This document shows, one piece after another, positions 14,825 through 38,713 of a stretch of DNA of 64,000 nt. The DNA comes from Alloactinosynnema sp. L-07. Lineage in GTDB: Bacteria; Actinomycetota; Actinomycetes; Mycobacteriales; Pseudonocardiaceae. How positions within the stretch are numbered: position 1 is the first letter of the stretch; every line of letters begins with the position of its first letter. The translations under genes were made by a program, and so were the position numbers. Under the pieces are notes generated by a model. It saw only the letters and a list, made by a program, of their open reading frames with translations, ran no database searches and was not told where the DNA came from. The stretch is taken from positions 310,001 through 374,000 of the forward strand of contig NZ_LN850107.1 of NCBI RefSeq assembly GCF_900070365.1. The letters run 5' to 3'.

Positions 14825-14854
14825 CGATTACATCGCTACTTGGCGATGTAATCG
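14825..14854. promoter_or_regulatory. operator dyad of the ATCGY-N6-RCGAT family (site 1)
   Basis: Perfect 12-base arms, CGATTACATCGC and GCGATGTAATCG, around a 6-base centre. The core CATCGC-N6-GCGATG has the same letters and spacing as the site over the cmtR start (25692-25709). It lies about 90 bp upstream of the MMPL start. It is the longest and most symmetric of the four sites seen. Confidence 0.7.
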
Positions 14855-14986
14855 CTGAATTTTGCTGATTGAGCCGATCAGGGAGACCCGCCGGTGGTCG
14901 TGTCCGAGGCCGGCATGACGGCGCGTGGCGCTACTCGGGGGCTAGGCGGCGACCGGTGCGAACCGCGCGGCGTCCTCGGGGCGTCG

Positions 14987-16456
14987 TCAGCGTGCGTCGA
15001 CGGTGATCGTGTGGTGTCCGGTCGCGCCGGTGGGGAACGGTTCCCGGGCCAGGGCGTCCTGGATGCGCCCGTCCGTGGTCACGCATCGCACCCGGATGCG
15101 GTGGGGGCCGGGTGGGAGGTCGGCCCGGTGGCGCCAGCGCCGCCAGGAGGACGGGGCCAGTTCGGCGGCGAGTTCGGCCGGTGTCCACTCGCCGTCGTCC
15201 ACCGCCACGTGGACCTCGCGGACGCCGCTGGGCGGGGCCCATGCCACACCGGTCACGTCGACTGCGCCGGTCGGGACCCGCGCGCCGTGGGTGGGGTGGT
15301 CGATCCGGGACAGGGGGCGCACGCGCAGGGGTCCGCGCGTCCATCCCCTGCTCAGCCAGTAGTCGGGGTTCGGGCCGGACTGGACCCTCAGTTCCGTCAG
15401 CCACTTCGCGCCGGTGTACTGCCCGTAGATCCCGGGCACCACCACGCGCGCCGGGAAGCCGTGCGCCGCGGTCAACGGCCGCCCGTTCATGCCGACCACG
15501 ACGTACCCACCCGACTCGTCCAGGTCGCGCAGCGGCAGCGTGCACTCCCAGCCGTCGACCGCCCGGGTCACCAGGTTCGCCCGACGTGACACCGGTGCCG
15601 CCCGGTCGAACAGCGACTTCAGGGGCACGCCGAGCCACCGGGCGTTGCCCAACCGGCCCCAGCCCAGCCGGTTGTGAACGCACACCAGGACGGCGTCGAA
15701 CTCGACCGGGCCGAGGTCGAGCAGGTCGTCGTAGCCGAGCGACAGTTCCGTGCCGACCTCGCCGGTGACGGTCAACCGCCACCGCGCCAGGTCCACCACC
15801 GGCGGGCGCATGTTCACGTCGGTGACGTAGAACTCGCCCACCGGAGTGATCAGCGGCGAGACCCCGGGCCAGTGCTCGCCGCCGTCGACGGCGGGCGGCA
15901 GCGGGTCGAGGGCGCGAGGCGTCCTGGCGGCCGACGGCAACTGCGTGCGGCGGCGCCCCTGGGCCGCGGTGGCCGCGCCGAGAGCGAGCGCGCCGAGTGC
16001 CGTGAGCACCGCGTTCGACGGACGCCTGGTGTTCAAGGCCGCGACGGTCGCCGCCGCGCCTGCCAACGCCGCGGCCAGGTTCGCAGCCATCGGACCGTCG
16101 GTGGCCACCGCGCGGCGGCGCGTCAACGCCGTCGCGGCGCCGGCCGCACCACCGGCCACCAACATGTCGCGAAGCGGGCGGCGGCGAGTCCGGCCGAGCA
16201 TGCCTCCCGCGGCGAGCACGGCCGCGGCGGCCGATGCCCGGATCACCGGCTTGTCCGCTTCCTTCAGCAAACGGACCACGACCTCCACCAAGGCTCGCGG
16301 TCCGATGTCGGCGGCCAGCTGGCCCGCCGCGTCGAGCGGGGAGCGCGACCTCGACAGCACAGCCGTCGCCTCCGCCACCCCGAGTCCGACCAGACCGGCC
16401 GCGACTCCGCGCCGCCAGCCCGTCCCACCACCCCTGGTTGTACTCGCATGTTTCAT
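14987..16456 (-). CDS. membrane-anchored molybdopterin-dependent oxidoreductase (sulfite oxidase fold)
   Basis: 489 residues. Residues 1-160 are Ala/Arg-rich with several hydrophobic segments, suggesting a membrane anchor. They are followed by the oxidoreductase molybdopterin domain: PLITPVGEFYVTDVN opens it, the Mo-ligand cysteine is in VLVCVHNRLGWG, and FPARVVVPGIYGQYTGAKW is the cofactor/active-site stretch. A C-terminal dimerisation domain follows (RIDHPTHGARVPTG onward). The start is ATG 16456, inside the palindrome shared with the divergent tetR-type gene. The substrate is unknown; sulfite oxidase or a methionine-sulfoxide-reductase-like role is possible. Confidence 0.85.
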   Translation of the reverse strand: MKHASTTRGGGTGWRRGVAAGLVGLGVAEATAVLSRSRSPLDAAGQLAADIGPRALVEVVVRLLKEADKPVIRASAAAAVLAAGGMLGRTRRRPLRDMLVAGGAAGAATALTRRRAVATDGPMAANLAAALAGAAATVAALNTRRPSNAVLTALGALALGAATAAQGRRRTQLPSAARTPRALDPLPPAVDGGEHWPGVSPLITPVGEFYVTDVNMRPPVVDLARWRLTVTGEVGTELSLGYDDLLDLGPVEFDAVLVCVHNRLGWGRLGNARWLGVPLKSLFDRAAPVSRRANLVTRAVDGWECTLPLRDLDESGGYVVVGMNGRPLTAAHGFPARVVVPGIYGQYTGAKWLTELRVQSGPNPDYWLSRGWTRGPLRVRPLSRIDHPTHGARVPTGAVDVTGVAWAPPSGVREVHVAVDDGEWTPAELAAELAPSSWRRWRHRADLPPGPHRIRVRCVTTDGRIQDALAREPFPTGATGHHTITVDAR

Positions 16457-16480
16457 ATGTGCACTATATGTGTTGCACAT
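16457..16480. promoter_or_regulatory. operator dyad between oxidoreductase and tetR-type genes
   Basis: Inverted repeat ATGTGCA-N10-TGCACAT. It lies in the 43-bp gap between the divergent oxidoreductase start (16456) and the TetR start (16500), and directly abuts the oxidoreductase ATG. Its position makes it the likely TetR operator controlling both directions. Confidence 0.6.
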
Positions 16481-16499
16481 CAGGAGGGTCGACGGAAGC

Positions 16500-17099
16500 A
16501 TGAACGACAAGAGACCGTTGCTCGATGATGCCGTTCTGGCGGCTGCGGCCCAGGTGATCGCCGAGCACGGTTGGCACGAGTTCACGCTGGAACGGGTCGC
16601 CCAGGCCGCCGGGATCTCCCGGGTCACCCTCTACCGGCGCGGTGCCACCCGTGAGCAGTTGGTCGAAGCCCTGGTCGTCGGCGCCGCACAGGCGTGGCAG
16701 GCGAGCCTGTGGCCCGCCCTGACCGGGCCGGGCACCGCGCCCGAGCGGCTGCGCGCGGCCTTGCACGCCTGCTGCGACGTCGTCGAGGAGCACCTGGCGC
16801 TGCTGACGGGTCTCAGCTCGGCGCCGGACCCCATATTCCACCTGGACGGGGAGTCCTCCGACGGCACGGACACCCGGCACGTCTACGTGGCGCCGTTCGA
16901 ACGGCTGCTGCGCGACGGCATCAGCGAAGGCTCCTTCCGCGGCGATCTCGACCCGGAGGAGACCGCGGTGCTGCTGTTCAACATCGTGCCCCGCACCTAC
17001 CTGCACCTGCGCGGCGCCCACCAGTGGGACGCGGCGAGAACGGCGGAGTCCCTGATCGCCCTGCTCATGCCCGGCCTGCTGGCCGAGCCGAAACGCTGA
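16500..17099 (+). CDS. TetR-family transcriptional regulator
   Basis: 199 residues from ATG 16500, with AGGAGG upstream. The N-terminal helix-turn-helix spans about residues 9-50 (AAAQVIAEHGWHEFTLERVA, then GISRVTLYRRG). A variable ligand-binding helical domain follows. It is divergent from the molybdopterin oxidoreductase across a palindromic 43-bp gap and is followed 28 bp later by an alpha/beta hydrolase, so it probably represses both. The much longer upstream open frame is a shadow of the oxidoreductase gene. Confidence 0.88.
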   Translation: MNDKRPLLDDAVLAAAAQVIAEHGWHEFTLERVAQAAGISRVTLYRRGATREQLVEALVVGAAQAWQASLWPALTGPGTAPERLRAALHACCDVVEEHLALLTGLSSAPDPIFHLDGESSDGTDTRHVYVAPFERLLRDGISEGSFRGDLDPEETAVLLFNIVPRTYLHLRGAHQWDAARTAESLIALLMPGLLAEPKR

Positions 17100-17127
17100 A
17101 CCGTCCCGAACCGCAGAGGAGTCCCAC

Positions 17128-20036: not shown

Positions 20037-20281
20037 TCAGGCGATGTCGGAGCGCTCGCCTTGGAGGGGCGGCCGGTGAGCCCGTCTCGCAGCGTCACCC
20101 ACATCGCCCTGCGGTTGCGGACGAGCAGCACTGCGGCGAGCAGCAGGTAGAGCGCGCCGAGTCCGATGCGTTCGGCCGGCGGCCAGGTCCGGCGGTAGCG
20201 TCCAGGCCAGTGCGAACTGGGCCAGGAACAGTCCGAGCAGTGCCCACGCGCCGCGCCGGGTCAGCGCACCGGCGGCGACCG
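20037..20281 (-). pseudogene. 3' fragment (1) of a CaCA antiporter gene
   Basis: About 245 bp matching, by eye, the last ~80 codons of the intact antiporter gene at 24199-25482 on the same strand. It includes the stretch coding the family's C-terminal RNRRAM-type segment and ends with a stop at the equivalent place. Small indels break the frame in the upstream half. The 5' part is replaced by the upstream region of the ACR3-like gene. It is non-functional and is evidence for segmental duplication. Confidence 0.75.
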
Positions 20282-22057: not shown

Positions 22058-22068
22058 AAGGAGCACCG

Positions 22069-22554: not shown

Positions 22555-24099
22555 TCAGCTCTTCTTCCGTCCGGTCAACAGGTCGTGAGACAGGCCGCCG
22601 AACTCCTCGCCGTACCCGGCCTGGTCGGTGCGCGCGAGACCGCCGACTTCGACCGCCGTGCGTCCGTCCTCTCGCGGGGTGGCCCTGACCCACACGCGGC
22701 GGCGCTTGATGCTCAATGACAGTAGCAGTCCCATGACGATCAGGACCGAGAACACGAGCACCCAGACCTGGGTGGGGTCGTGCGAGATTTGTAGAGACAC
22801 CCAGTCCCGCACGCCGTCGAAGCGGATCACGGTGCCGTCGTCGAGCCGCAGTTCCTGGCCGATCCGCAGGTTCTGTCGGGCCACCTTCATGAGCCCGCCA
22901 GCCTGCACCATTCTCTCGTCGATGGAGAAAATGGACTGCCCACGGCCCGCGTCGATGCCTAGGTCGCCGCGGTAGACGTCGATTGCGACGGCCGGGTCGT
23001 ACGGCGCAGGAAACGCCGAGTCGAGCAACTCCCCTCGGAAAGCGGCGGTGGGCGCGAGCAGGCCGGTGATGGCGAGCTGGTTCCTGCGGCGCTGCTCGGG
23101 ATCAGTGGCGTCGGGCGGATCGAATTTCGTCGCGCCCTCGGATGCCAGCGTCACCTGGTCGACCGGACGCCACTGCACCGCACCGACCCGCTGGGTCCCG
23201 TCGGGGAACGTGACGGTGAACAGCGGTGTGTAGCCGTGGCCGAGCAGATAGACGCGATCACCGGCAGTGCGCAGCGGATTGTTGACCTCCAGCGCGTAGG
23301 GCCGCCAGGTGCCGGTCTCCAGATCCGTTCCGGACTGATAGCCGATGTCGGCGCGGAAACTCTCGGGTTGGCCGTTGGGTAGGTAGGTGGCTGTGAAGCC
23401 GTCGACCTTCACGCAGAACGGGGTGAGGTTCGAGCCGTCCACGCGCAGGCCGGGTCGGAACGTGTCGTAGTTGTAGACGCCTGCGTTGCAGAACTGGCCG
23501 CCGTTGGCCTGGACAATGACCTGACCCTCGTAGTTCACCATCTTGCCCAGTGCGAAGGCGATCAGCAGGCCGAGCAGCGAGAAGTGGAACACCAGGTTGC
23601 CTGTCTCACGCAGGTAGCCACGCTCGGCGCTGACCGTTCGGATGCCATCGGGTTCCTCCCGGATGATGCGACGCCAGCCCTTGAGGCGACGCTCGACATG
23701 CGCGATGACCTCCTCGGGCGTCGCGTCGACCTCAGCGCTGGCATGGTGCGGCATCCGGGCAAGGTTGCGCGGGGTGAGCACGGGCCGGGCCCGCGTCTGC
23801 TGGAAGTACGCCCAGGTACGCGGCAGCAGGCAGCCCACTAGGGAGACGAACAGCAGCAGGTAAACCGCAGAGAACCAGACGCTCGCGTAGACGTCGTAGA
23901 ACTGGAGGTCGTCGAGGAACCTGCCCCACCAGCCATTCTCGGCGATGAACTCATCAACCTTGCCGGCGTTGAGGGAGCGCTGCGGCAGCAGGGCACCCGG
24001 CATCGCGCCCAGGGCGAGAAGGAACAGCAAAGTCAACGCGGTCCGCATAGCCGTGAGGCCGCGCCACGTGTTGCGCAAGAGCGCGAAAGTTCCCCGCAC
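22555..24099 (-). CDS. resB: cytochrome c biogenesis protein ResB
   Basis: 514 residues with the ResB plan: three N-terminal transmembrane helices (about 16-36, 73-92, 167-185), a large extracytoplasmic domain with the FCNAGVYNYDTFRPG segment, and a final helix (QVWVLVFSVLIVMGLLLSL). It partners CcsB in System II haem attachment to apocytochrome c. It starts at 24099, about 100 bp beyond the end of the antiporter gene, with which it shares strand. The separation from ccdA and ccsB is unusual for actinobacteria, where resA-ccdA-resB-ccsB normally form one operon. Confidence 0.93.
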   Translation of the reverse strand: MRGTFALLRNTWRGLTAMRTALTLLFLLALGAMPGALLPQRSLNAGKVDEFIAENGWWGRFLDDLQFYDVYASVWFSAVYLLLFVSLVGCLLPRTWAYFQQTRARPVLTPRNLARMPHHASAEVDATPEEVIAHVERRLKGWRRIIREEPDGIRTVSAERGYLRETGNLVFHFSLLGLLIAFALGKMVNYEGQVIVQANGGQFCNAGVYNYDTFRPGLRVDGSNLTPFCVKVDGFTATYLPNGQPESFRADIGYQSGTDLETGTWRPYALEVNNPLRTAGDRVYLLGHGYTPLFTVTFPDGTQRVGAVQWRPVDQVTLASEGATKFDPPDATDPEQRRRNQLAITGLLAPTAAFRGELLDSAFPAPYDPAVAIDVYRGDLGIDAGRGQSIFSIDERMVQAGGLMKVARQNLRIGQELRLDDGTVIRFDGVRDWVSLQISHDPTQVWVLVFSVLIVMGLLLSLSIKRRRVWVRATPREDGRTAVEVGGLARTDQAGYGEEFGGLSHDLLTGRKKS

Positions 24100-24198: not shown

Positions 24199-25482
24199 TC
24201 ACCCTGTCTCGGAGCGCTCGGCTTGGAGGGCGCGGCCGGTGAGCCCGTCGCGCAGTGTCATCCACATCGCTCTGCGGTTGCGGATCAGCAGGATCGCGGC
24301 GAGCAGCAGGTAGAGCGCGCCGAGTCCGACGCGTTCGATCTGGGCTAGGTCCGGCGTCAGTGTCCACGCCAGCGCGAACTGGGCCAGGAACAGTCCGAGC
24401 AGAGCCCACGCCCCGCGCCGGGACAGTGCGCCGGCGGCGACAAGGGACACGGCGAACATCGACTGGGCCGCGGTGAGGAACAACTCCTCGCGCTGCAACG
24501 GGTCGATCGGCAAACCGGCCAGCGACCCGGCCGAGGTCGCGAAGACCAGCGGCAGGATGCCGACCAGCAGCGTCCACTGGTTGATCTTCGAGGAGATCAG
24601 CGCGCCCAGCGCGGCGGCGCCGCGCAGCTTCCAGGCCAGCAGCAGCACGGCGATGAATTCCGGGGTCTCCGACGCCAGTGGCGCCACCCATTGGACCAGC
24701 AGGAACTGGCTGACCCCCAGCTCGGTGCCGGTCTCGACCAGGCCGTCGGCGAACGGCTCCGCCACGGCCAGGATCACCGCGGCGGCGAACACCAGCATGC
24801 CGACCGCGGCCCAGCGGCGGGTCCGGGCCGGTCCGGTCGCGATTCGCGCGGCTGGCCCGATCAGCTCGCCGACCTCTTCGTCGTCGTCATCGTCCACCCG
24901 GCTGACCCGCACCAGGTACAGCGCGAAGATCCCGAACAGGACGACCGCGTCCAGCAGGTTGAGGGTGTCGCGCAGCGCGAAGGTGAGCGCGTACAGGCTG
25001 GCCACCGCCAGGTAGGCGATCTCCACGGTCTGCACCGGTTCCAGACGCACGGCCGAGCGGTCCTCCGGGCGGGTGTCGGGTGCGCGGCGACGCCGCGCGG
25101 CCAGTGCCGCGAGCACGACCAGCGACCAGCCCACGCCGATCAGCAACCGGTTGGCCCCGGTCATGTTGGCCAGTGCCAGCGGGGCGTAGGTCTCGGGGTC
25201 CTGGCCGGCCTTCCAGGCGAACACCACGTCCACCGCGTACTCCGGCAGCACCGCGATCAGCGCCAACAGCGCCAGCGCGAGCCCCTGCCCGATGTCCCGC
25301 TCCGCCAGCTCGGTGCCCCAGCTGAGGAAGAACGCCGCTCCCACCACGGCCGCGCCCAGCACCAGCACCGCGAGCACCGCCGGCGTCGGCGCCCCGCCGA
25401 AGCGCAGCACCAGTCCGGGGATCGCGGCCACCACCGGCAGCGCCAGCGGCCAATTCCGTCGAACGCCCGCGGTCGCGGTCAC
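24199..25482 (-). CDS. sodium/calcium exchanger-family (CaCA) antiporter
   Basis: 427 residues with about 11 hydrophobic segments and an acidic central loop (RVDDDDDEEVGEL). The two alpha repeats are visible: LPEYAVDVVFAW in the first half and SETPEFIAVLLLAWK in the second, each with the conserved acidic residue used for cation binding. It starts with an ATG at 25482. It is divergent from cmtR across 218 bp containing two ATCGY-N6-RCGAT dyads, so metal-responsive control is likely. Fragments of its 3' end recur at 20037 and 21691. Confidence 0.88.
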   Translation of the reverse strand: MTATAGVRRNWPLALPVVAAIPGLVLRFGGAPTPAVLAVLVLGAAVVGAAFFLSWGTELAERDIGQGLALALLALIAVLPEYAVDVVFAWKAGQDPETYAPLALANMTGANRLLIGVGWSLVVLAALAARRRRAPDTRPEDRSAVRLEPVQTVEIAYLAVASLYALTFALRDTLNLLDAVVLFGIFALYLVRVSRVDDDDDEEVGELIGPAARIATGPARTRRWAAVGMLVFAAAVILAVAEPFADGLVETGTELGVSQFLLVQWVAPLASETPEFIAVLLLAWKLRGAAALGALISSKINQWTLLVGILPLVFATSAGSLAGLPIDPLQREELFLTAAQSMFAVSLVAAGALSRRGAWALLGLFLAQFALAWTLTPDLAQIERVGLGALYLLLAAILLIRNRRAMWMTLRDGLTGRALQAERSETG

Positions 25483-25583
25483 CTCCGCGCCTCCGAGTTG
25501 CGCTGTCCCGAGCCGACCCCGAGGCTCTGCCTGCCGGCCATCACCGCTCCTCTCCTCGACAAGGATCGTCGTTGGACGATTAA

Positions 25584-25599
25584 ATCGTTATCTGACGAT
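25584..25599. promoter_or_regulatory. operator dyad of the ATCGY-N6-RCGAT family (site 2)
   Basis: ATCGT-TATCTG-ACGAT, about 100 bp upstream of the antiporter start and 100 bp upstream of cmtR. An overlapping ACGATTAAATCGT (25576-25588) makes the region doubly symmetric. It matches the core and spacing of the sites at 14832, 25693 and 38698. Confidence 0.65.
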
Positions 25600-25691: not shown

Positions 25692-25709
25692 CATCGCTTC
25701 ATGGCGATG
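25692..25709. promoter_or_regulatory. operator dyad of the ATCGY-N6-RCGAT family (site 3) over the cmtR start
   Basis: CATCGC-TTCATG-GCGATG, with the cmtR ATG (25701-25703) inside the spacer. It shares CATCGC-N6-GCGATG with the MMPL site. Binding here would block autogenous transcription. The absence of a ribosome site before the ATG suggests a leaderless cmtR mRNA starting at or near the ATG. Confidence 0.68.
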
Positions 25710-26117
25710 AACCGAGCGGAGCAGTGTCTCGCCCCGGACGCCGAGGTGTCCGGGTTGGATGCAGCTGTGGCGTTGTTCCACAGCCTGTCCGACGGAACGC
25801 GGTTGACGATCGTGCAGCGGCTGGCCCGTGGTGAGACCCGGGTGGCGGACCTGGTGGAGCAGTTGGGCTTGGCCCAGTCGACGGTGTCGGCGCACATGGC
25901 CTGCCTGCGTGACTGCGGCCTGGTGGTCGGCAGGCCGCAGGGGCGTCAGGTGTTCTACAGCCTGGCCCGGCCTGAGTTGATGGACTTGCTGGCTGCGGCG
26001 GAGACGCTGCTGGCCGCGACGGGCAACGCGGTGGCGCTGTGCCCCAACTACGGCACCGACGTCGGTGTCACGGATGAGAACGACTTGATGGACGAGATGA
26101 AGGAGACCGTGTCATGA
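25701..26117 (+). CDS. cmtR: ArsR/SmtB-family metal sensor, CmtR-like
   Basis: 138 residues. The winged-helix domain is ArsR-type: ALFHSLSDGTRLTIVQRLA, then LAQSTVSAHMACLRDCGLV. C68 and C72 in CLRDC correspond to the Cys pair of the mycobacterial Cd/Pb sensor CmtR, and C114 in ALCPNYG to its C-terminal ligand. It is therefore expected to release DNA on binding Cd(II) or Pb(II). ATG 25701 is used, although ATG 25707 is possible. The gene overlaps cadA by 4 bases (ATGA). A dyad covers its own start, indicating autoregulation. Confidence 0.88.
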   Translation: MAMNRAEQCLAPDAEVSGLDAAVALFHSLSDGTRLTIVQRLARGETRVADLVEQLGLAQSTVSAHMACLRDCGLVVGRPQGRQVFYSLARPELMDLLAAAETLLAATGNAVALCPNYGTDVGVTDENDLMDEMKETVS

Positions 26118-28090
26118 GCGACGCCTGCGGGTGTGGCGACGACGAGCCCCGCGCCGTCGGCGAGGAGGCCGAGGAGGAGCACGAGCCGGAGCGGCTGTGG
26201 GAGGTGCGCGAACTTCAGTTCGCCGCGATCTCCGGCGTGTTCCTGCTCGTGGCCCTGATCACCGGGTGGGCGGGCGGTGCCGACATCGTCGTGACCGTGG
26301 CGGAGTGGCTGGCGCTGCTGGCGGGCGCGTACACCTTCGTCCCGTCCACGGTGAAGCGGCTGGTCAAGGGCAAGATCGGTGTCGGCACGCTGATGACGAT
26401 CGCCGCGGTCGGCGCCGTGCTGTTGGGCGAGGTGGGCGAGGCCGCGATGCTGGCCTTCCTGTTCTCCATCAGCGAGGGTCTGGAGGAGTACTCCCTGGCG
26501 CGTACCCGCCGTGGGCTGCGCGCGCTGCTGTCGCTGGTGCCCGACCAGGCCACCGTGCTGCGCGACGGCGCCGAGGTGGTCGTGGAGCCCGGTGAGCTGC
26601 GGGTCGGGGACCTGATGCTGGTCAAGCCGGGTGAGCGGCTGGCCACCGACGGCGTCATCCGGGAGGGGCGCACCGCGCTGGACGTCTCGGCGATCACCGG
26701 CGAGTCCGTTCCGGTCGAGGCCGGTCCCGGCGGCGACGTGTTCGCCGGGTCGATCAACGGCACCGGGGTGCTCACCGTCGAGGTGACCACGACCGCCGAG
26801 GACAACTCGCTGGCCCGGATCGTGAAGATCGTCGAGGCCGAGCAGTCCCGCAAGGGTGCCGCCCAGCGCCTGGCGGACCGCATCGCCAAGCCGCTGGTGC
26901 CCGGCGTGATGGTCGCCGCGGCGCTCATCGCCGCGGTCGGCAGCCTGCTGGGCGACCCGCTGGTGTGGATCGAGCGTGCGCTGGTCGTGCTGGTGGCGGC
27001 GTCGCCGTGCGCGCTGGCCATCTCCGTGCCCGTGACGGTCGTGGCGGCGATCGGCGCCTCGTCCAAGCTCGGTGTGCTGGTCAAGGGCGGCGCCGCGCTG
27101 GAAGCCCTGGGCCGGGTGCGCGGGGTCGCGTTGGACAAGACCGGCACCCTGACCGCGAACCGGCCCGCCGTGATCGACGTCGCCACCACCGGAGGTGCCA
27201 GCCGGGAGCAGGTGCTGGACGTGGCCGCCGCGCTGGAGTCCCGCAGCGAACACCCCCTCGCCCGCGCCATCCTCGCCGCCGTCGACAAGGTGGACCCGGC
27301 TTCCGACGTGGAGGCGGTGACCGGCGCCGGACTCACCGGCCGCTACGAGGGGCGTCCCGTCCGGCTCGGCCGGCCGGGCTGGCTCGAAGCCGGTCCGCTG
27401 GCCGCGGACGTGGCCCGGATGCAGTCCGCCGGGGCGACCGCCGTGCTGGTCGAACAGGACGGGCAGGTGATCGGCGCGATCGCCGTGCGGGACGAGCTGC
27501 GCCCCGAGGCCGCCGAGGTCGTCGCCCAGTTGCGCCGTGACGGCTACCACGTCGCGATGCTCACCGGCGACAACCACGCCACCGCGACCGCCCTGGCCAA
27601 GGACGTGGGCATCGACGCGGTCCACGCCGAACTGCGCCCGGAGGACAAGGCCGCCCTCGTCAAGCAACTGAGTGCACAGCGGTCCACCGCGATGGTCGGC
27701 GACGGCGTCAACGACGCACCCGCCCTGGCCACCGCCGACCTCGGCATCGCGATGGGCGCGATGGGCACCGACGTGGCCATTGAAACCGCCGACGTCGCGC
27801 TCATGGGTGAGGATCTGCGGCACCTGCCGCAGGCGTTCACCCACGCCCGCCGCGCCCGGTCGATCATGCTCCAGAACGTCGGCCTCTCCCTGGCCATCGT
27901 GGTCGGCCTGATGCCGCTGGCGCTGTTCGGGGTGCTCGGTCTGGCGGCCGTGGTGCTCGTGCACGAGGTGGCCGAGATCGTCGTCATCGCCAACGGCGTC
28001 CGCGCCGGCCGCGCCAAGCCACTCGCACTCACCCCTGGCGACCGGCCGGCACCGCGGACGCAGCCCGCGACGGTGGGGGCGTCCTCGTGA
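26114..28090 (+). CDS. cadA: heavy-metal translocating P-type ATPase (CadA-like)
   Basis: P1B-type ATPase of 658 residues exporting soft divalent metals. Motifs in order: TGES in the actuator domain, SPCALAIS (the transmembrane CPC-type metal site, about residue 297), phosphorylation motif DKTGTLT (about 341), SEHPLAR, and MVGDGVNDAPAL (about 528). The usual N-terminal HMA domain is absent; instead a short cysteine- and acid-rich tail, ACGCGDDEP, begins the protein. It is coupled to cmtR upstream (ATGA) and lspA downstream (GTGA). Cd, Pb or Zn specificity is inferred from the CmtR-like sensor. Confidence 0.92.
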   Translation: MSDACGCGDDEPRAVGEEAEEEHEPERLWEVRELQFAAISGVFLLVALITGWAGGADIVVTVAEWLALLAGAYTFVPSTVKRLVKGKIGVGTLMTIAAVGAVLLGEVGEAAMLAFLFSISEGLEEYSLARTRRGLRALLSLVPDQATVLRDGAEVVVEPGELRVGDLMLVKPGERLATDGVIREGRTALDVSAITGESVPVEAGPGGDVFAGSINGTGVLTVEVTTTAEDNSLARIVKIVEAEQSRKGAAQRLADRIAKPLVPGVMVAAALIAAVGSLLGDPLVWIERALVVLVAASPCALAISVPVTVVAAIGASSKLGVLVKGGAALEALGRVRGVALDKTGTLTANRPAVIDVATTGGASREQVLDVAAALESRSEHPLARAILAAVDKVDPASDVEAVTGAGLTGRYEGRPVRLGRPGWLEAGPLAADVARMQSAGATAVLVEQDGQVIGAIAVRDELRPEAAEVVAQLRRDGYHVAMLTGDNHATATALAKDVGIDAVHAELRPEDKAALVKQLSAQRSTAMVGDGVNDAPALATADLGIAMGAMGTDVAIETADVALMGEDLRHLPQAFTHARRARSIMLQNVGLSLAIVVGLMPLALFGVLGLAAVVLVHEVAEIVVIANGVRAGRAKPLALTPGDRPAPRTQPATVGASS

Positions 28091-28596
28091 CCGCACCCGG
28101 CCACACCGCCACGGTGGCGCGCGCACGGCTGGTCATGGCGGCCGTCGCGCTGGGGCTGGCCGCGCTCGACCTGGGCCTGAAGGCCTGGGCCGAGCGCGGC
28201 CTCGCCGCCGGCGACACCGTCGACCTGGGCGTGATCCAGCTGCGGCTGGCGTTCAACCCCGGCGTGGCGTTCAGCCTCGGCGACACGCTGCCCGCCGGGG
28301 TCCTGCTCGCCGTCACCGGCCTGATCATCACCGCGCTGGCCGTCTACACCTGGCGCTCAGCCCGCACCGGCACGCTGCCCATGCGGCTGGCGCTGGCCGT
28401 GGTACTGGCCGGCGCGGTCGCCAACTTCGTCGACCGCGCCGTCGACGGGGTCGTCACCGACTACCTGCACACCGGCTGGTTCCCCACCTTCAACGGAGCC
28501 GACGTGTTCATCACCCTCGGTGCCGCCGCCCTGATCCTGGCCACCCTGCACGCCGACCACCGCGCCAAGGACCGCACCGAGGGAGGAGCGCAGTGA
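28087..28596 (+). CDS. lspA: lipoprotein signal peptidase II
   Basis: 169 residues with four hydrophobic segments. The two catalytic aspartates are in NFVDRAVDGVVTDYLH and FNGADVFI, and the conserved FNPGVAFSL is present near residue 56. The enzyme cleaves prolipoproteins before the lipidated cysteine. The GTG overlaps the cadA stop by four bases. Genomes usually carry a housekeeping lspA elsewhere, so this is probably an accessory copy. LspA genes next to cadmium ATPases recur in Gram-positive metal-resistance loci, and a partner Lnt is encoded at 33079-34674. Confidence 0.92.
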   Translation: MTAPGHTATVARARLVMAAVALGLAALDLGLKAWAERGLAAGDTVDLGVIQLRLAFNPGVAFSLGDTLPAGVLLAVTGLIITALAVYTWRSARTGTLPMRLALAVVLAGAVANFVDRAVDGVVTDYLHTGWFPTFNGADVFITLGAAALILATLHADHRAKDRTEGGAQ

Positions 28597-29213
28597 CGGC
28601 GCAGGGTGAAGACCGACTCGTCCGGCGCGGGCTGGCGCTGGCCTGGTTCATCGTCGTCTGGGACCTCGTCGAAGGCGTCGTCGCCGTCACCGCCGGACTG
28701 GTCGCCGGCTCCATCGCCCTGGTCGGGTTCGGCATCGACTCGGCCATCGAGGTCTTCGCCGCCTCGGTGGTCATCTGGCAACTCCGCGGCGGCGCCCACG
28801 CCCGGCAGCGACCCGCGCTGCGCATGATCGCGATCACCTTCTACGTGCTCGCGGCCTACGTCGCGTTCGAGGCCGTGCGCGACCTGATCACCCAGGACAA
28901 GGCCGGCGAGTCGCTGGTCGGCATCGTGCTCAACGTGGTCGCGCTGATCGTGATGATCCCGGTCGGCCTCGCCCAGCGCCGCACCGGCCGGGCACTGCGC
29001 AACCCCGTGCTGGTGGCCCAGTCGACCGAAACCTGGATGTCCAACGCCCTGTCCGTCTCCGTACTGGCCGGCCTCGGACTCAACGCCGCCCTCGGCTGGT
29101 GGTGGGCCGACCCGGCCGCCGCCCTCGTGGTCGCCGCCCTCGCCGCCTGGTCCGGCCGCGAAGCCTGGGAGGAAGCCGGAGACCACGAACATCAACACCT
29201 CACGGAGCCGTGA
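28593..29213 (+). CDS. cation diffusion facilitator-like transporter
   Basis: 206 residues with about six hydrophobic segments. The first conserved helix reads ALVGFGIDSAIEVFAA, and the matching site in helix five is QSTETWMSNALSVSV. The protein lacks the C-terminal cytoplasmic domain of full CDF exporters, so it is a minimal form. It overlaps lspA upstream (GTGA type) and the PaaK-like gene downstream (TGATG). Its place in the cmtR operon suggests export of the same metals as CadA. Confidence 0.85.
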   Translation: MTAQGEDRLVRRGLALAWFIVVWDLVEGVVAVTAGLVAGSIALVGFGIDSAIEVFAASVVIWQLRGGAHARQRPALRMIAITFYVLAAYVAFEAVRDLITQDKAGESLVGIVLNVVALIVMIPVGLAQRRTGRALRNPVLVAQSTETWMSNALSVSVLAGLGLNAALGWWWADPAAALVVAALAAWSGREAWEEAGDHEHQHLTEP

Positions 29214-33078: not shown

Positions 33079-34674
33079 CTACACGGGCGCCTGCCGCCGC
33101 CGTCTCGACCAGGCGCCGGCCAGCCCGGCCATCCCCGCGACGACCATGATCCATTCCGGAAGAGCCCCCAATCGGTCGGCGACCGTGACGCTGGTGCGCA
33201 GCGGCACCGTCTCGACCAGCGCGGCCGGGGTGAACAGCGAGGTGCGTTGCGCGACGGTGCCGTCGGGCCGGATGATCGCGCTGACGCCGCTCGTGGTTGC
33301 CACGACCACCGCGCGGCCGTGCTCGACCGCGCGCAGGCGGTCCATGGCGAGCTGCTGGTAGGTCATCTCGGTGAACCCGAACGTGGCGTTGTTGCTGGGC
33401 ACCGCGAGCAGCGTGGCCCCGGCCGTCACCGAGTCGCGGACGGCCGCGTCGAAGGCGACCTCGTAGCACATCGCGATCCCCACCCGCGCTTTGGACATGG
33501 CGAACACGCGCGGATCCGTGCCGGGGACGAACCGCCCGGCCCGGTCGACCTTGTCGCTGAAGATCCGGAAGAACGACCGCAGCGGCATGGTCTCGCCGAA
33601 GGGCTGCAACCGGCGCTTGGTGTACTCCTCGATCGGTCCGCGCTGCGGATCCCACAGGATCGCGGTGTTGCGTGGCCGGTCGGTGTCCCCGCCGAGCACC
33701 GCGCCGACGGCGATCGGCGCGCCGATGGCCTTGGCCGCGCGGTCGATCGCGGCGAAGGCGTCGGGGTTGCGGTAGGGGTCGATGTCGGAGGAGTTCTCCG
33801 GCCAGATCACCAGGTCCGGCCGACGCACCTGGCCCGCCCGCACCTCCTCGGCGAGTTCGACGGTGCGCCGGACGTGGTTGTCCAGCACCGCGCGGCGCTG
33901 GGCGTTGAAGTCCAGCCCGGCCCTGGGCACATTGCCCTGCACCACCGCGACCGTCACCTCACCGGCCTCGGGCGCTACACCCACCAGCGGGCCCACCGCC
34001 CAGCCCGCCGTGAGCGGGACCACCGCGGCCAGCAGCGGCACGGCGAGCCGGGCCGGGCGCCGGTCCCGTCCTGCCACGCACCGGCGCGCCAGTTGCGCGG
34101 CGCCGAACCCGGTCACCGACACCGCGAAGGCGACCAGCGGGGTGCCGCCCAGCGCGGCCAACGACAGGTATCCGCCCTCCGGCTGGCTGAACGCGATCTT
34201 CGCCCAGGGAAACCCTCCGAACGGCACCAGCGCCCGCAGCGTCTCGCCCGCCACCCACAGCAGCGCCGCCCACACCGGCGCGGCCGGCAGCCGTGTCACC
34301 ACCGCGATGCCCGCCGTCGCCACGCCGACCAGCGCGGCCTGCAGCACCGCGAGCGGGATCGCGGCGATCGGACCGACGAACTCGCCCGTCCACCACAGCA
34401 GCGGCACCATCCAGCCCAGCCCGGCGAGCAACCCGTAGCCGAAACCCGCCCGCGCACCACGCCCGGACAGCACCCAGAACAGCCCGGCGAACCCCAGCGG
34501 CGCGAGCCACCACAACGGCCGGGGCTGGAAACTCAGGTAGAGCAGCACTCCCGACGCCACGGCGAGCACCACACGCGCAAGCACCGCACCACGCCGCCGT
34601 CGGCGCGCCGCGGTACGAACGTCGACCGGCGTCTCCTCGGCGTGGCTCATGTGGGTGGACATCGGCGCGGTCAC
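33079..34674 (-). CDS. lnt: apolipoprotein N-acyltransferase
   Basis: 531 residues. The N-terminal half has about seven membrane segments, and the C-terminal half is a carbon-nitrogen-hydrolase domain with Glu (VIWPENSSDID), Lys (YTKRRLQPFGE) and Cys (GIAMCYEVAF) in Lnt order. It adds the third acyl chain to the lipoprotein N-terminal cysteine. It is the last gene of a six-gene run with GTGA/ATGA overlaps. Combined with the accessory lspA in the convergent operon, the island encodes two of the three lipoprotein maturation steps; lgt is not seen. Confidence 0.92.
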   Translation of the reverse strand: MTAPMSTHMSHAEETPVDVRTAARRRRRGAVLARVVLAVASGVLLYLSFQPRPLWWLAPLGFAGLFWVLSGRGARAGFGYGLLAGLGWMVPLLWWTGEFVGPIAAIPLAVLQAALVGVATAGIAVVTRLPAAPVWAALLWVAGETLRALVPFGGFPWAKIAFSQPEGGYLSLAALGGTPLVAFAVSVTGFGAAQLARRCVAGRDRRPARLAVPLLAAVVPLTAGWAVGPLVGVAPEAGEVTVAVVQGNVPRAGLDFNAQRRAVLDNHVRRTVELAEEVRAGQVRRPDLVIWPENSSDIDPYRNPDAFAAIDRAAKAIGAPIAVGAVLGGDTDRPRNTAILWDPQRGPIEEYTKRRLQPFGETMPLRSFFRIFSDKVDRAGRFVPGTDPRVFAMSKARVGIAMCYEVAFDAAVRDSVTAGATLLAVPSNNATFGFTEMTYQQLAMDRLRAVEHGRAVVVATTSGVSAIIRPDGTVAQRTSLFTPAALVETVPLRTSVTVADRLGALPEWIMVVAGMAGLAGAWSRRRRQAPV

Positions 34675-35300
34675 GCTCCTGTGCTCAGATAACGGTCCAC
34701 CGTGTCGCGAACCTGCTCGACGGTGCGGAACGGTGTGGGCGGCTCGACCCGGTGGACCGTGCCGTCCGGCAGTACCACGTAGCTGACGGGCAGGTAGGCG
34801 GGCAGCCGCAGAGCCGCGGCCACGGCGCCGGTGGTGTCGTGCACCGACGCCACCCGCACACCGAGGCCGGCGAGCATGTCCAGGCCGTCGGCGGAATCAC
34901 TGCGCACCTGCACCCCCAGCACGCTCACGGCACCGGCCGAGGCCGCGTACGCCTCCAGCACCGGCAGTTCCTCCCGGCACGGCTGACACCACGTCGCCCA
35001 CACGTTGACCAACGCCGGACGGCCCGCCAGCGTCGAGCCGAGGTCGATGTCCGTGCCGTCGCCCAGGCACGTGGCGCGCACATTGGTCAACGGTCCCGAC
35101 ACCGCGCCACCGGTAGCGGACGCGGGACACGGCCGCAGGCCCGCTGCGGCCCGTGCGGCAGCCAGATCACGACCCACACCGTCGCGCGCGGCTGTCGGGA
35201 CGTGCTGCGCAGGCTCGGTGCCCTGGCGCGGCCACACGGCGACCACGACGGCGACGACCAACACGACCAGCCCGATCACCCACCGACGTGCGGTTGTCAT
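34671..35300 (-). CDS. TlpA-like membrane-anchored thioredoxin
   Basis: 209 residues. One N-terminal anchor helix (residues 8-23) precedes an extracytoplasmic thioredoxin fold with active site WCQPC (C105, C108) and the cis-Pro region at YLPVSYVV. GGGAAGG lies before ATG 35300, and the stop overlaps lnt by four bases. Two further cysteines (C58, C78) in the linker could form a second disulfide. It is probably a reductant or oxidant partner for CcdA or DsbA in the same operon. Confidence 0.87.
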   Translation of the reverse strand: MTTARRWVIGLVVLVVAVVVAVWPRQGTEPAQHVPTAARDGVGRDLAAARAAAGLRPCPASATGGAVSGPLTNVRATCLGDGTDIDLGSTLAGRPALVNVWATWCQPCREELPVLEAYAASAGAVSVLGVQVRSDSADGLDMLAGLGVRVASVHDTTGAVAAALRLPAYLPVSYVVLPDGTVHRVEPPTPFRTVEQVRDTVDRYLSTGA

Positions 35301-35318: not shown

Positions 35319-35933
35319 CTAGATCACGGTGAGCCAGTAGTCCCAGAACGCCTGGAGCACGGCCAGACCGATCAGCAGATACCACAGGATGAGCACCACC
35401 GTGTGATATCCGGCCAGCACGGCGACCACGCGACGCGGGGCCGGCAGGTGACCGTCGCGCAGGTTGTGCACGGTGGTGTACCAGAAGATCGGGATCACGA
35501 CCGCCCACACGGCCATGCAGTACGGGCACAGCGCGCCGATGACGTACAGGCTCTGGTAGACCAGCCAGTGCACGAACACCACGCCGAACAACGTGCCGGC
35601 CTGCAGACCGAGCCAGAACCACCCCGGTAGCCGTGCCCCGGCGAACAGCACCACCCCGACCGTGACGACCACGGCGAACCCGGCGATACCCAACAGCGGA
35701 TTGGGAAAGCCGAACACCTCCGCCTGACCGGTGCGCATGATCGAGCCACAGCTCAGGATCGGGTCGATGCTGCACGAGGGCACGTAGTCGGGCGTGGTGA
35801 GCAGGGCGATCTTCTCGACCGTGAGCACCAGCGCGGCAGCCAGGCCGACGGCACCGCCGATCGTCAGGATCCAGGGCAGCAGTCGTGTGGTGAACACGGC
35901 CGCCTGTGGCTGTGGCTCGATGGTGGTGCTCAC
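35319..35933 (-). CDS. vitamin K epoxide reductase-family protein
   Basis: 204 residues, five hydrophobic segments. The quinone-linked CxxC is CPYC (C136-C139) and the loop cysteines are C54 and C62 (PSCSIDPILSCG), the full VKOR set. Bacterial VKOR reoxidises DsbA, passing electrons to menaquinone. Its GTG overlaps the dsbA stop (GTGA), which matches the expected VKOR-DsbA functional pair. Confidence 0.92.
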   Translation of the reverse strand: MSTTIEPQPQAAVFTTRLLPWILTIGGAVGLAAALVLTVEKIALLTTPDYVPSCSIDPILSCGSIMRTGQAEVFGFPNPLLGIAGFAVVVTVGVVLFAGARLPGWFWLGLQAGTLFGVVFVHWLVYQSLYVIGALCPYCMAVWAVVIPIFWYTTVHNLRDGHLPAPRRVVAVLAGYHTVVLILWYLLIGLAVLQAFWDYWLTVI

Positions 35934-36634
35934 TTCTTCGCCAGTTGCCGTTCGATCGCGGCCTTGAGCGCCTCGTAGGTGGGCGCGCCCGGGAACTTGA
36001 CGCCGTTGACGAAAAACGTCGGCGTGCCCCGCACGCCGAGAGTGGTGCCGTCGTCGCGGTCCTTGCGCACCCGCGCGATCGTGGCGGGGTCGTCCAGGGC
36101 GGCCTCGAACCGCGGCAGGTCCAGACCCAGTTCGCGGGCGAACCCGAGGAAGGTGTCCCGATGAGAGACCTGCTGGTCACCCCACTGCGGCTGGTTCTCG
36201 TACATCAGCCGGTACATCGGTTCCAGCTTGCCCTGCTGCCCTGCGGCCTCCACCGCGCGGGCGGCCAGCTCCGCGTTGCGGTGACTGGGAATCGGGAAGT
36301 ACCGCATCACGAACGTGACCCGGTCGCCGTACTCGGCGCGCAGCCTCTCCACACCGGGAAAGGCCGCGCCGCACGCCTCGCACTCCAGATCCAGGAACTC
36401 CACAATGGTGACCTTGCCGTCGGTCGCCTCGGACAGCTTGTGACTGTCCGGACGGACCAGCACCGAGGCCGGAGCGGTCGGCGGCGCCGCACCGGCCTCC
36501 TCGGGCGAGTACCCGCGTTCCGGGCGATTGAGCAGAAGCAGTGCTCCGACCACCGCCACTACGACGGCGACGACGGTCACCGAGACTTTCGCATTCCGCG
36601 TCACAGGTTGAACCTCCGCATCGGATCGGGTCAC
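35930..36634 (-). CDS. DsbA-family thiol-disulfide oxidoreductase
   Basis: 234 residues, membrane-anchored by residues 17-36. The DsbA fold has active site CEAC (C85-C88) in FLDLECEACGA and the cis-Pro loop VRGTPTFFVNG. It introduces disulfides into exported proteins, with VKOR as its recycler. The start GTG 36634 overlaps the ccdA stop and the stop overlaps VKOR. The family often has CPYC or CPFC, so CEAC suggests altered redox potential. Confidence 0.92.
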   Translation of the reverse strand: MTRSDAEVQPVTRNAKVSVTVVAVVVAVVGALLLLNRPERGYSPEEAGAAPPTAPASVLVRPDSHKLSEATDGKVTIVEFLDLECEACGAAFPGVERLRAEYGDRVTFVMRYFPIPSHRNAELAARAVEAAGQQGKLEPMYRLMYENQPQWGDQQVSHRDTFLGFARELGLDLPRFEAALDDPATIARVRKDRDDGTTLGVRGTPTFFVNGVKFPGAPTYEALKAAIERQLAKK

Positions 36635-37413
36635 AGGGGCGTGGTGAAGCCGGCGATGGGCCCACGCAGCAGGGCGACGAGCTCACCCCACAAGCCGGTC
36701 ACCAGCAGCGCCCCGACGGCCAGCAGCAGCACGCCGCCGGTGAGCTGTACCGCCCGGGTGTGCCGACGCAGCCAGCCGGCGGTGGTGACCGCCCATCGGG
36801 CGCTGACGGCGAGCAGCACGAACGGCAGCCCGAGCCCGACGCAGTAGGCCAGCACCAGCAGCACACCGCGCCACACCGTCGGCCCCGCCTGCGTGCCGCT
36901 GGCCAGCGCGATCACTCCGGCCAGCGTCGGCCCCAGGCACGGTGTCCAGCCCAGCCCGAACACCGCGCCGAGCACCGGTGCACCCCACAGCCCCCGTCGC
37001 GGCCGATGCTTGAGCCGCACCTCGCGTTGCAGCGCGGGAATGAACCCGAGGAACGCCAGCCCCATCGCGATGGTGACGACGCCACCGATGCGTTGCAGCA
37101 GTTGCTCGTTGGCCAGCAACGCGTCCGACACGCCCAGCACGCTGAGCACCGCCGCGCCGAACACCACGGTGAACCCGAGCACGAACAGCAGCGCCGCCCC
37201 GGCCACCCGCCACCGGTCCGTGCGGCGCCCGGCCGATGTCTCGTCGCCGTCGACAGCCGGGGCGTCCGCGCCGACCAACCCGGCCAGATACGCCAGGTAG
37301 CCGGGCACCAGCGGGATGCAGCACGGGGAGGCGAAGGAGATGGTGCCGGCGGCGAGCGCCACGACCGCGGCCAGCAGCAGCGGCCCGGAGATCGCCAGAT
37401 CGGTCGGGTTCAC
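36631..37413 (-). CDS. ccdA: cytochrome c biogenesis protein CcdA
   Basis: 260 residues, six or more hydrophobic segments in two repeats. The paired redox motifs are SPCCIPLVPGY (C31) and TPCLGPTLAG (about residue 157). CcdA carries electrons from cytoplasmic thioredoxin across the membrane to ResA and other exported thioredoxins. It is coupled by four-base overlaps to resA upstream and dsbA downstream. Confidence 0.93.
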   Translation of the reverse strand: MNPTDLAISGPLLLAAVVALAAGTISFASPCCIPLVPGYLAYLAGLVGADAPAVDGDETSAGRRTDRWRVAGAALLFVLGFTVVFGAAVLSVLGVSDALLANEQLLQRIGGVVTIAMGLAFLGFIPALQREVRLKHRPRRGLWGAPVLGAVFGLGWTPCLGPTLAGVIALASGTQAGPTVWRGVLLVLAYCVGLGLPFVLLAVSARWAVTTAGWLRRHTRAVQLTGGVLLLAVGALLVTGLWGELVALLRGPIAGFTTPL

Positions 37414-38090
37414 GCCCCACCCCCCGCCTGGGAGGGCTCGGCGGCGATCCGCTCGACGACCGGCAGCAGGTCACTGTCCAGCAATGCGATCAGGAACACC
37501 GCCGCCACCCGGTGCTGCCGGTCCAGAATGATCGTGGAGGGCACCACGCTGCGAGGGAAGCCCTTGAGCGCCAGCATGGTGCGACCCGACGGGTCATAGA
37601 ACGACGGGTAGCCGACCTGGAAGTTGGTCACGAAATCCTGCGCCGCACTGCGGTCGTCGCGCGCGTTGACACCGAGGAACTGCACGCCGGACTCCTTGGT
37701 CTGGGCGTACACCCGTTCCAAGTCGTCGGCCTCCGCCCGGCACGGGCCGCACCACGAGGCCCAGACGTTGAGGACCACCACCTCGCCGGCGTAGTCGGAC
37801 AGCTTCAGCTCGCGGCCGGGCTCAGCGAGGTTGTCGCCGACCATCTCCGCGATCTTCCCGCGCTGCTCGGGCGGGTCGTAGAAGATCTTGGTCTGTCCGC
37901 CGGGGGCGACGAACTCGAAGCTACTGCCGGTGACCACAGCGTCCTTACCGGAACTGCACGCGGTCACCGCCAGCATCAGTAGCGAAACGACCGCGGCGAG
38001 CACTCCACGGCCCGGCCTGCGCAGCGTTGCGGCGCGGTGCCTGCGGAAGGCGGCAGCACGCGAGGCAACGCGAGTGAACCCTTGTCGCAC
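37410..38090 (-). CDS. resA: ResA/TlpA-like lipoprotein thioredoxin
   Basis: 226 residues. A long basic N-terminus is followed by a signal ending in LAVTAC (lipobox, C45). The thioredoxin domain has WASWCGPCRAE (C114, C117) and the cis-Pro region VVPSTIILD. ResA reduces apocytochrome c cysteines before haem attachment by ResB-CcsB. It is a predicted lipoprotein substrate of the LspA and Lnt enzymes encoded in the same island. An internal start nearer the signal is possible, since about 25 residues precede the hydrophobic segment. Confidence 0.88.
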   Translation of the reverse strand: MRQGFTRVASRAAAFRRHRAATLRRPGRGVLAAVVSLLMLAVTACSSGKDAVVTGSSFEFVAPGGQTKIFYDPPEQRGKIAEMVGDNLAEPGRELKLSDYAGEVVVLNVWASWCGPCRAEADDLERVYAQTKESGVQFLGVNARDDRSAAQDFVTNFQVGYPSFYDPSGRTMLALKGFPRSVVPSTIILDRQHRVAAVFLIALLDSDLLPVVERIAAEPSQAGGGA

Positions 38091-38201
38091 AGAACTTTCT
38101 CCATCGAGTCGGCGAACGCGGCAGTGATCGGGGCCGGGACCAGCGGCGGGAGTGGCACGCCCGAAGCGTGCCAGTCGCGCGCGGCCTGGCTGGGGATCCA
38201 G

Positions 38202-38615
38202 CTACGCCCGCAACACGCAGAGTTGTTCGAGCCGAGGAGTCCGTCGGCATGTGCGCCGGGCCCACCTCACCCGCTGCGCCCGAGTCGGATGGCCCGTACG
38301 CGACTCAGACCGCCGCAGCGCGGCTGCGGCGAGGAGAACGGCCAACACGACCAGCAGGCACACACCAAGCACGCCATCGAAACCACCGGGTATGTCCGGC
38401 ATCGCGTCGACCAGCACACTTGGAACGCCCGGTTCCACCGGCACGTCTACCGACATCAGCGAAACCGAATCATCGGATGGCAAGCACAACGCCGTCGGCC
38501 CCGCTACACAGAGTGAGCCCTGCAGAAGAGCCAGACCCGCGATAAGCGTGAGCGCAGCGACAAGCCGCACGAGACCTGCTCGTGCGGCACTACGTGTCGT
38601 CACGGGGCCAGTCAC
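38202..38615 (-). CDS. small membrane protein of unknown function
   Basis: 137 residues if GTG 38615 is used; GTG 38603 is an alternative. It has two hydrophobic segments: LVAALTLIAGLALLQGSLCV near the start and GVLGVCLLVVLAVLLAAAAL near residue 100, with a cysteine-containing periplasmic loop between. It could belong with DUF6153-like proteins of metal operons, but I am not sure. It lies 111 bp upstream of resA on the same strand and just downstream of operator site 4, so it is probably the first gene of the redox operon. Confidence 0.55.
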   Translation of the reverse strand: MTGPVTTRSAARAGLVRLVAALTLIAGLALLQGSLCVAGPTALCLPSDDSVSLMSVDVPVEPGVPSVLVDAMPDIPGGFDGVLGVCLLVVLAVLLAAAALRRSESRTGHPTRAQRVRWARRTCRRTPRLEQLCVLRA

Positions 38616-38697
38616 GTCGACAAGGTTAACCTCGTGGGCCGCCGCGCCCTCCGGACACCCCTGAGCGCTCGCCACCGCACATACAATGATGGTATCA

Positions 38698-38713
38698 ATC
38701 GTAGTATCACGAT
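38698..38713. promoter_or_regulatory. operator dyad of the ATCGY-N6-RCGAT family (site 4)
   Basis: ATCGT-AGTATC-ACGAT inside a wider AT-rich symmetric stretch (TATCA...GATGATA). It lies between the minus-strand redox operon and the plus-strand methyltransferase at 38749, about 36 bp before the latter. Core and spacing match the cmtR-proximal sites, linking this operon to the metal sensor. Confidence 0.66.

Follow-up and report, generated by a model that had tools for sequence, protein, structure and literature searches.

Repressors of the ArsR/SmtB family hold their operators as apo-dimers, from which they are released by metal. In CmtR the metal site is formed by the cysteines C57 and C61 with C102 as the third, C-terminal ligand, and a 2009 paper by Chauhan reportedly speaks, in its title, of multiple operator sites. 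The release of the operator by metal in this family is also stated in the available part of PMC10961391. As described in the available parts of two further papers, CmtR of Mycobacterium tuberculosis regulates an operon that includes a P-type ATPase gene (PMC13043812), and in M. bovis the wider effect of CmtR runs through Zur and esx-3 in a CmtR-Zur-ESX3 pathway (PMC7863910). Here, we analyse a stretch of 64,000 nucleotides of Alloactinosynnema sp. L-07 (contig NZ_LN850107.1, positions 310,001 to 374,000; the window), where the dyad ATCGY-N6-RCGAT recurs before genes for a CmtR-like sensor (CmtR1), an MMPL transporter, an antiporter, a disulfide operon and a methyltransferase (MT). We propose that this dyad is quite probably the operator of a CmtR-like regulon with two sensors, which couples metal efflux to envelope redox repair. 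No account of this operator or regulon was found in our literature search, which lay outside the papers on the M. tuberculosis CmtR operator, so that a prior description is possible.

The proposal is carried mainly by the relatives of the regulator, for which we took the best 80 of 182 in the genome collection (72-89% identity) and examined all 80 loci (1.18 Mb). The exact dyad lies between -200 and +60 of the regulator match start in 74 of these loci, and 96 of the 102 dyads of the 1.18 Mb fall there. Among the 15 spacer lengths tried, only 6 gives any site near the regulator start, the lengths 0-5 and 7-14 giving zero. As for the six exceptions, five retain ATCG-N8-CGAT (the core) and the last (L064) is one core base off. 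Moreover, 79 of the 80 relatives have their start codon exactly 8 bases into the core, with the -10 hexamer TATCAT in 62 and a close variant of it in the other 17, and a Shine-Dalgarno-like sequence is absent in 78 of those 79. By sequence, this is the arrangement of a leaderless promoter overlaid by the operator, the leaderless start itself being what we infer from it. As would be looked for in an autoregulated operator, the core is fused with the promoter and start of the regulator gene itself in the 79 relatives, in CmtR1 and in CmtR2, the second sensor of this genome. The comparison thus supports the first-pass annotation, made from the letters alone, in its suggestion that the CmtR-like protein would be the reader of the dyad.

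It is noted that this conservation is not explained by kinship, because after thinning to 25 upstream regions that are less than 70% identical, 24 retain the core at -8, and because the third base of codon 2, which is free to vary, is always G (25 of 25, the codon being four-fold degenerate, NCG, in 24). In the thinned set the core columns reach 1.76-2.0 bits versus a mean of 0.22 at -80 to -21. At the 13 loci in the genus that encode distant CmtR-like proteins (34-47% identity) no exact dyad occurs, and the sensor is absent from the 15 other genomes of the genus, where the best match has 47% identity. Five other carrier genomes hold 11 to 17 exact sites each. Sites at cmtR-like or MT genes number 4 of 13 in one of them, grouped in 11 kb, and 4 of 12 in another, grouped in 9 kb; the remaining three have only one or two such sites each, and in G482 one further site stands beside a distant CmtR-like gene. 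Separately, a different dyad, ATCGA-N6-TCGAT, was seen in three tandem copies near metal-transport genes (L027:5176-5252, L200:603-677 and L201:457-531), and is perhaps the operator of another ArsR clade.

In the window the exact dyad occurs five times, at 14832, 25565, 25584, 25693 and 38698, whereas dinucleotide shuffles of the window give 0.34 on average and at most 2, with none of 100 reaching 5. The core occurs at 6 sites, to be compared with a mean of 1.08 and a largest value of 5 in 100 Markov-1 simulations. The four dyads of the first-pass annotation are all present (two of them were given there with one extra C, as 14831 and 25692), confirming its observation, and 25565, which lies 19 bp from 25584, had been overlooked. 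Its placing of them all in promoter regions also holds, since by the gene calls used the core sites are intergenic, save 25693 over the cmtR start. In tandem, core sites stand at recurrent distances including 19, 37-38 and 77 bp, and cooperative binding is possible there. The full operator consensus is roughly GCTATCATCGY-N6-RCGATGATAGC.

The complete 7.4-Mb genome contains 20 exact dyads, 6 of which fall inside 305424-348713, a stretch of 43 kb that begins to the left of the window start at 310001; from the dyad density of the rest of the genome 0.08 would be expected, with the stretch picked after the sites were seen. A weight matrix was derived from 69 distinct sites in other species; it scores only the flanks and the spacer and was not used for site finding. 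The six clustered sites score 5.7 to 14.4, while the 99.9th percentile of random window positions is 3.3. Of the 14 dyads outside the cluster, 12 score -3.4 or less, the exceptions being 6751397 (6.6) and 3038384 (1.8), so that clearly operator-like flanks occur only at the clustered sites and at the antitoxin-like gene start at 6751397. The many stray copies that had been named beforehand as speaking against the idea were thus not seen, 12 of the 14 outside dyads having background-like flanks. With a relaxed 22-bp pattern, 147 genomic places have at most 3 mismatches; 3 of the 4 with 0-1 mismatch lie in the island, and 2 of the 10 with 2 mismatches. We take 6751397 (contig C1, L019) as a chance match and not as a regulon member: it is the start of an antitoxin-like gene with a separate palindrome adjoining, and the gene begins ATGGCGATG, which may account for the match. 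This small gene presumably encodes an antitoxin-like protein, standing before what we take to be a Doc/Fic-like toxin gene. At 3038384 (L022:2001-2016), the exact dyad is intergenic and is a possible further regulon member, the gene downstream being presumably universal-stress-like.

CmtR1 is an ArsR/SmtB protein by its matches to PF01022 (53.6 bits, cut-off 22) and NF033788 (90.7, cut-off 55). Its closest solved relative is 2jsc, CmtR of M. tuberculosis, and its cysteines C68 and C72, which align with the C57/C61 pair of 2jsc, are kept in 81 of 81 proteins. C114, in a stretch that falls outside the 2jsc alignment, is likewise invariant in all 81, as are Q59, S60, T61, S63 and H65 of the recognition helix, while A64 is K in 10. 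To the left of the window, at about 305432 of the genome, lies the gene of CmtR2, which is 75% identical to CmtR1 with the same recognition helix; a genome search with CmtR1 at E 1e-10 returns these two proteins only. The sixth dyad, at 305424, separates a second methyltransferase gene from the CmtR2 gene, downstream of which are genes for a CDF-type cation pump and then LspA, and GCTATCATCGC is common to this site and the promoter of the CmtR1 gene. With the same recognition helix, both sensors probably share all six sites. The first-pass annotation had counted on a single sensor for cadmium and lead. CmtR1 fits that role, but the second protein has to be added to it; and the conserved cysteines and the adjoining cadmium-family ATPase, which suggest Cd/Pb as the signal, agree with the proposed metals, while the bit-score cut-off of the NCBI CmtR family is missed.

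The same earlier idea extended the regulon beyond efflux, and in this the relatives support it, more firmly for MT than for the MMPL, antiporter and redox genes. In a survey of 150 genomes of the family, 11 of the 12 MT hits outside this genome are divergent to cmtR-cadA. Upstream regions were compared at 33 MT loci outside this genome, one of them dropped as partial, with 8 of 18 plasmids opened. A core site is present within 400 bp upstream in 29 of the 32 full-length relatives, 19 of them exact, compared with 2 of 96 control stretches, and 9 of the 12 MT genes having no divergently adjacent cmtR retain it. MT, annotated only as a generic S-adenosylmethionine (SAM) methyltransferase, is by these comparisons a constant companion of this sensor. 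In the window the 38698 dyad lies 51 bp before MT, the distance being 52-57 bp in the MT/cmtR divergons of family relatives.

At the MMPL gene the 14832 dyad covers, on the minus strand, a -35-like hexamer, TCGCCA (from 14846), and reaches halfway through the 18-bp spacer that separates it from a -10-like TATGAT (ending at 14817). At 19 of the 80 regulator loci an MMPL gene is transcribed divergently from cmtR, and 18 of these have at least 2 core sites in between, one being the cmtR-start site. These MMPL proteins are only 29-39% identical to that of the window over the matched part, so that a repeated recruitment of MMPL is possible. The antiporter gene has its two dyads here, and an exact dyad also precedes the antiporter gene of a Lentzea (L028:7854), the protein being 91% identical to that of the window; in L294 a relative of 46% identity sits inside a cmtR-lspA-antiporter-cadA run behind the dyad. 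The Lentzea locus also has the short leader open reading frame (ORF) upstream of the antiporter gene, in the same layout and with similar residues, and the overlap of the leader TGA with the antiporter GTG suggests translational coupling of the two. Strand and spacing indicate that CcsB would be co-transcribed with MMPL and ResB with the antiporter, there being no terminator-like site in either gap (about 300 bp and 100 bp). Beyond the 14832 site, as seen from MMPL, lies a gene for a sulfite-dehydrogenase-like molybdopterin oxidoreductase (14987-16627). Fragments that are 88-97% identical to the antiporter C-terminus were seen at 21697-22082 and 20070-20277, and further pieces downstream match the overlapping ORF 23954-24691 at 71-80% identity; by sequence these antiporter-gene fragments are remnants of duplication.

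The System II set of cytochrome c maturation consists of ResB, CcsB/CcsA, CcdA and a TlpA/ResA protein. The island contains the whole of this set, as known from genes alone (PF05140 500, TIGR03144 235, PF02683 32.2 and PF08534 76.9 bits), and it is a second set that is split, with TlpA-CcdA at 38698, ResB behind the antiporter and CcsB behind MMPL. The strongest argument for a common purpose is that one operator heads all three of these gene groups. The housekeeping TlpA-CcdA-ResB-CcsA cluster of the same genome (about 5.356-5.360 Mb) has no core site in 16 kb. Similar associations are met elsewhere: in three genomes of one genus (L238-L240), the dyad is followed by cadA-lspA and, further downstream in the same orientation, by TlpA-CcdA-Lnt, TlpA lying about 1.3 kb from the cation-efflux piece; on pSI-1 the exact dyad stands between TlpA on one side and ResB-CcsB on the other; a Mycolicibacterium rufum plasmid has a dyad that separates cmtR-cadA-lspA from a divergent TlpA-family redoxin and Lnt; and in L072 DsbA/VKOR are divergent, beside such a dyad. 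The metal-resistance island appears mobile. MT is found on 18 plasmids of six genera, and the second CmtR locus (contig C1, 303-310 kb) has as its flanking genes one that is TniQ-like (25.2 bits, just under the cut-off of 27) and one for a Mu-type transposase (L016:8095-9693 and 12917-14938), perhaps a Tn7- or Tn402-like element. The features of the window are collected in Table 1.

Table 1. Dyads, core site and genes of the putative regulon in the window (bits are scores of family matches)
Feature	Position	Strand	Remarks
CcsB/CcsA-type cytochrome c maturation protein	11217..12155	-	TIGR03144 235 bits (cut-off 187.6), PF01578
MMPL transporter	12457..14769	-	PF03176 267 bits; likelier start GTG 14733 after GGAGG
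Weaker core site ATCG-N8-CGAT	14813..14828		19 bp from 14832, over -10-like hexamer
Dyad ATCGC-N6-GCGAT before MMPL	14832..14847		Flank score 12.4; core of near-perfect 13-pair palindrome 14825-14854
ResB, cytochrome c maturation	22555..24099	-	PF05140 500 bits; 100 bp behind antiporter gene
Na/Ca-exchanger-type antiporter	24199..25482	-	PF01699 77.6 bits
20-codon leader ORF	25479..25541	-	TGA stop overlaps antiporter GTG start
Antiporter promoter dyad 1	25565..25580		Exact; flank score 5.7
Antiporter promoter dyad 2	25584..25599		Exact; flank score 8.3; 19 bp from dyad 1
Dyad at sensor gene	25693..25708		Covers -10 TATCAT(25689-25694)-N6-ATG(25701); layout as in 79/80 relatives
CmtR1, CmtR-like ArsR/SmtB repressor	25701..26117	+	PF01022 53.6 bits, NF033788 90.7 bits; predicted leaderless
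CadA-type heavy-metal P1B-ATPase	26114..28090	+	TIGR01512 520 bits (cut-off 313.5)
LspA, signal peptidase II	28087..28596	+	TIGR00077 88.3 bits (cut-off 73.95)
Small cation-efflux protein	28593..29213	+	PF01545 35.7 bits; CDF superfamily 64.4, under cut-off 82.35
Lnt, apolipoprotein N-acyltransferase	33079..34674	-	TIGR00546 282 bits
Redoxin	34671..35300	-	PF00578 41 bits
VKOR	35319..35933	-	PF07884 151 bits
DsbA-like oxidoreductase	35930..36634	-	PF13462, PF01323
CcdA/DsbD transmembrane protein	36631..37413	-	PF02683 32.2 bits
TlpA/ResA-type thiol-disulfide oxidoreductase	37410..38090	-	PF08534 76.9 bits
Hypothetical, membrane-protein-like; first disulfide-operon gene	38202..38616	-	No family match
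Dyad between disulfide operon (-) and MT gene (+)	38698..38713		Exact; flank score 9.1
MT, class I SAM methyltransferase	38749..39369	+	PF08241 63.6 bits
PEMT/ICMT-type membrane methyltransferase	39366..40001	+	PF04191 52.9 bits

Based on these data, the mechanism that we propose would be as follows. In the absence of metal a repressor dimer would sit on the promoter, covering at the regulator genes the -10 hexamer and the first bases of the leaderless message and at MMPL the -35 hexamer and the spacer. The binding of metal to the conserved cysteines would cause the dimer to leave the DNA, and this release would induce cmtR-cadA-lspA-cation efflux, the antiporter with probably ResB, MMPL with probably CcsB, the TlpA-CcdA-DsbA-VKOR-redoxin-Lnt operon and the two methyltransferases, and at the second locus another methyltransferase, the CDF pump and LspA. 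The likely purpose would be to combine efflux with a newly made second set of proteins for envelope thiol, cytochrome c and lipoprotein maturation. In Rubrivivax, cadmium lowers the respiratory haem complexes, as stated in the available part of PMC7283390, and because of this damage in another bacterium a spare envelope assembly line would be plausible here. A more specific version, put forward only tentatively, is that of a mobile two-sensor stress regulon in which metal would bring a complete second set for cytochrome c maturation, disulfides and lipoproteins from at least 3 promoters, efflux and the two methyltransferases, the latter of which may modify membrane lipids or the metal.

Several observations weigh against the proposed regulon. 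In the family survey MMPL matches occur in 132 genomes and antiporter matches in 53, with 29 loci of each fetched, and the exact dyad is present at 0 of the 29 MMPL loci and at 1 of the 29 antiporter loci, there with GC-rich, unlike flanks. It is also present at 0 of 29 fetched TlpA loci outside this genome within 3.5-3.7 kb, three of which (L209-L211) belong to cmtR runs visible in longer stretches. Simple promoter scans found no sigma-70-like promoter before the antiporter or at 38698; three of the 32 MT loci (L251, L260 and L267) have no upstream core site; and any of eight redox families occurs in the fetched flanks of only 11 of the 80 cmtR loci, the control loci, a smaller set of shorter stretches (58 loci, 272 kb versus 1178 kb), holding none. 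Six plasmid regions with ResB or CcdA (L271-L276), opened out of 94 and 186 plasmid records with these genes, have one core match and no exact dyad, so that redox and metal genes also travel with each other where this operator is absent. These are plasmids of Rhodococcus, Nocardia, Mycobacterium, Mycolicibacterium and Pseudonocardia with extra cytochrome c maturation genes, several also with metal ATPases or cytochrome oxidase genes, partly beside other ArsR-type regulators. Finally, the NCBI CmtR equivalog NF047906 (cut-off 150 bits) is missed by CmtR1 (67.4) and CmtR2 (60.6). The bare family homologues, the likeness of the 38698 site to a transplanted MT/cmtR divergon and the regional rearrangement evidenced by the fragments from a duplicated antiporter gene would all be expected if the dyad operated only at the regulator genes and MT, its copies at MMPL, the antiporter and the disulfide operon being non-controlling left-overs of rearrangement. 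We consider this improbable, because the MMPL site forms a 13-pair palindrome over a promoter-like pair, MMPL-cmtR divergons with at least 2 sites recur in 18 loci, the antiporter has its sites here, in Lentzea and inside the cmtR operon of L294, and on pSI-1 the dyad is flanked by TlpA and ResB.

The missed NF047906 cut-off, together with the position of the CmtR2 gene before a CDF pump rather than before CadA, allows that the sensor is real while its main metal is not Cd/Pb, being for example Zn or Hg, or one metal for each paralogue. This is somewhat unlikely in view of the alignment of C68/C72 with C57/C61 of 2jsc and the cadmium-family P-type ATPase in the operon, and it would be compatible with the regulon proposed here. 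That a different DNA-binding protein reads the dyad, for which the LacI-type regulator encoded at 40878-41930 would be at hand, is very improbable: across many genera the dyads go with the CmtR clade, the exact dyad is absent at the 13 loci of distant CmtR-like relatives in the genus (34-47%), and the second regulator copy shows the same fusion of operator and start. Least credible of all, and hardly worth entertaining, is that the repeats are chance or terminator hairpins. A chance origin is ruled out by the shuffles, the genome clustering, the flank scores, the core simulations and the conservation in the thinned set. The stretch 14825-14854 is also listed as a plus-strand terminator-like stem; we reject this reading, as no called plus-strand gene ends there and the minus-strand tail is not T-rich, and the conservation at gene starts is at the level of DNA.

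If the proposed regulon is true, the cell would pump metal out and temporarily replace the envelope assembly line that the metal poisons, and a metal-inducible spare assembly line would be a testable answer to the cadmium damage of haem complexes. Among known systems, the modules of actinobacterial plasmids (for example pBD2, pNF1 and R. fascians PBTS 2) also have TlpA, CcdA, ResB, CcsB, Lnt and DsbA-like or VKOR genes, with metal transporters nearby in most of the six opened; they differ in that an ArsR-type gene is present in 3 of the 6, the two found with CmtR1 as the query being about 45% identical, and in that the exact dyad is present in 0 of 6. The pbr regulator is of the MerR type. By contrast, the regulator here is of the ArsR type. 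In the pbr lead-resistance operon of Cupriavidus metallidurans, as given in the available part of PMC4531530, a P-type ATPase is accompanied by the signal peptidase PbrC/LspA, and the same pairing is seen here; of the 17 ORFs between 22555 and 40001 that were searched with Pfam, which make up part of those in the stretch, none encodes a PAP2 phosphatase (PbrB). With CmtR of M. tuberculosis (Rv1994c, 2jsc), the locus shares the CxxxC cysteine pair in the same place and the P-type ATPase operon under the sensor, but only 33 of 79 aligned residues are identical in CmtR1, which stays under the NCBI CmtR cut-off. As in M. bovis, a CmtR protein would act beyond its own operon; there the pathway runs via Zur and esx-3, whereas here one conserved operator lies at efflux, redox and methyltransferase genes. 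For a clade of metal sensors found across many actinobacterial genera and plasmids, the present analysis adds to these systems a precise operator, its position on a promoter of the leaderless type and a list of genes; it would link cytochrome c maturation and the formation of disulfides to a metal sensor, and it makes MT, the generically annotated methyltransferase that travels with the sensor, a clear target for study.

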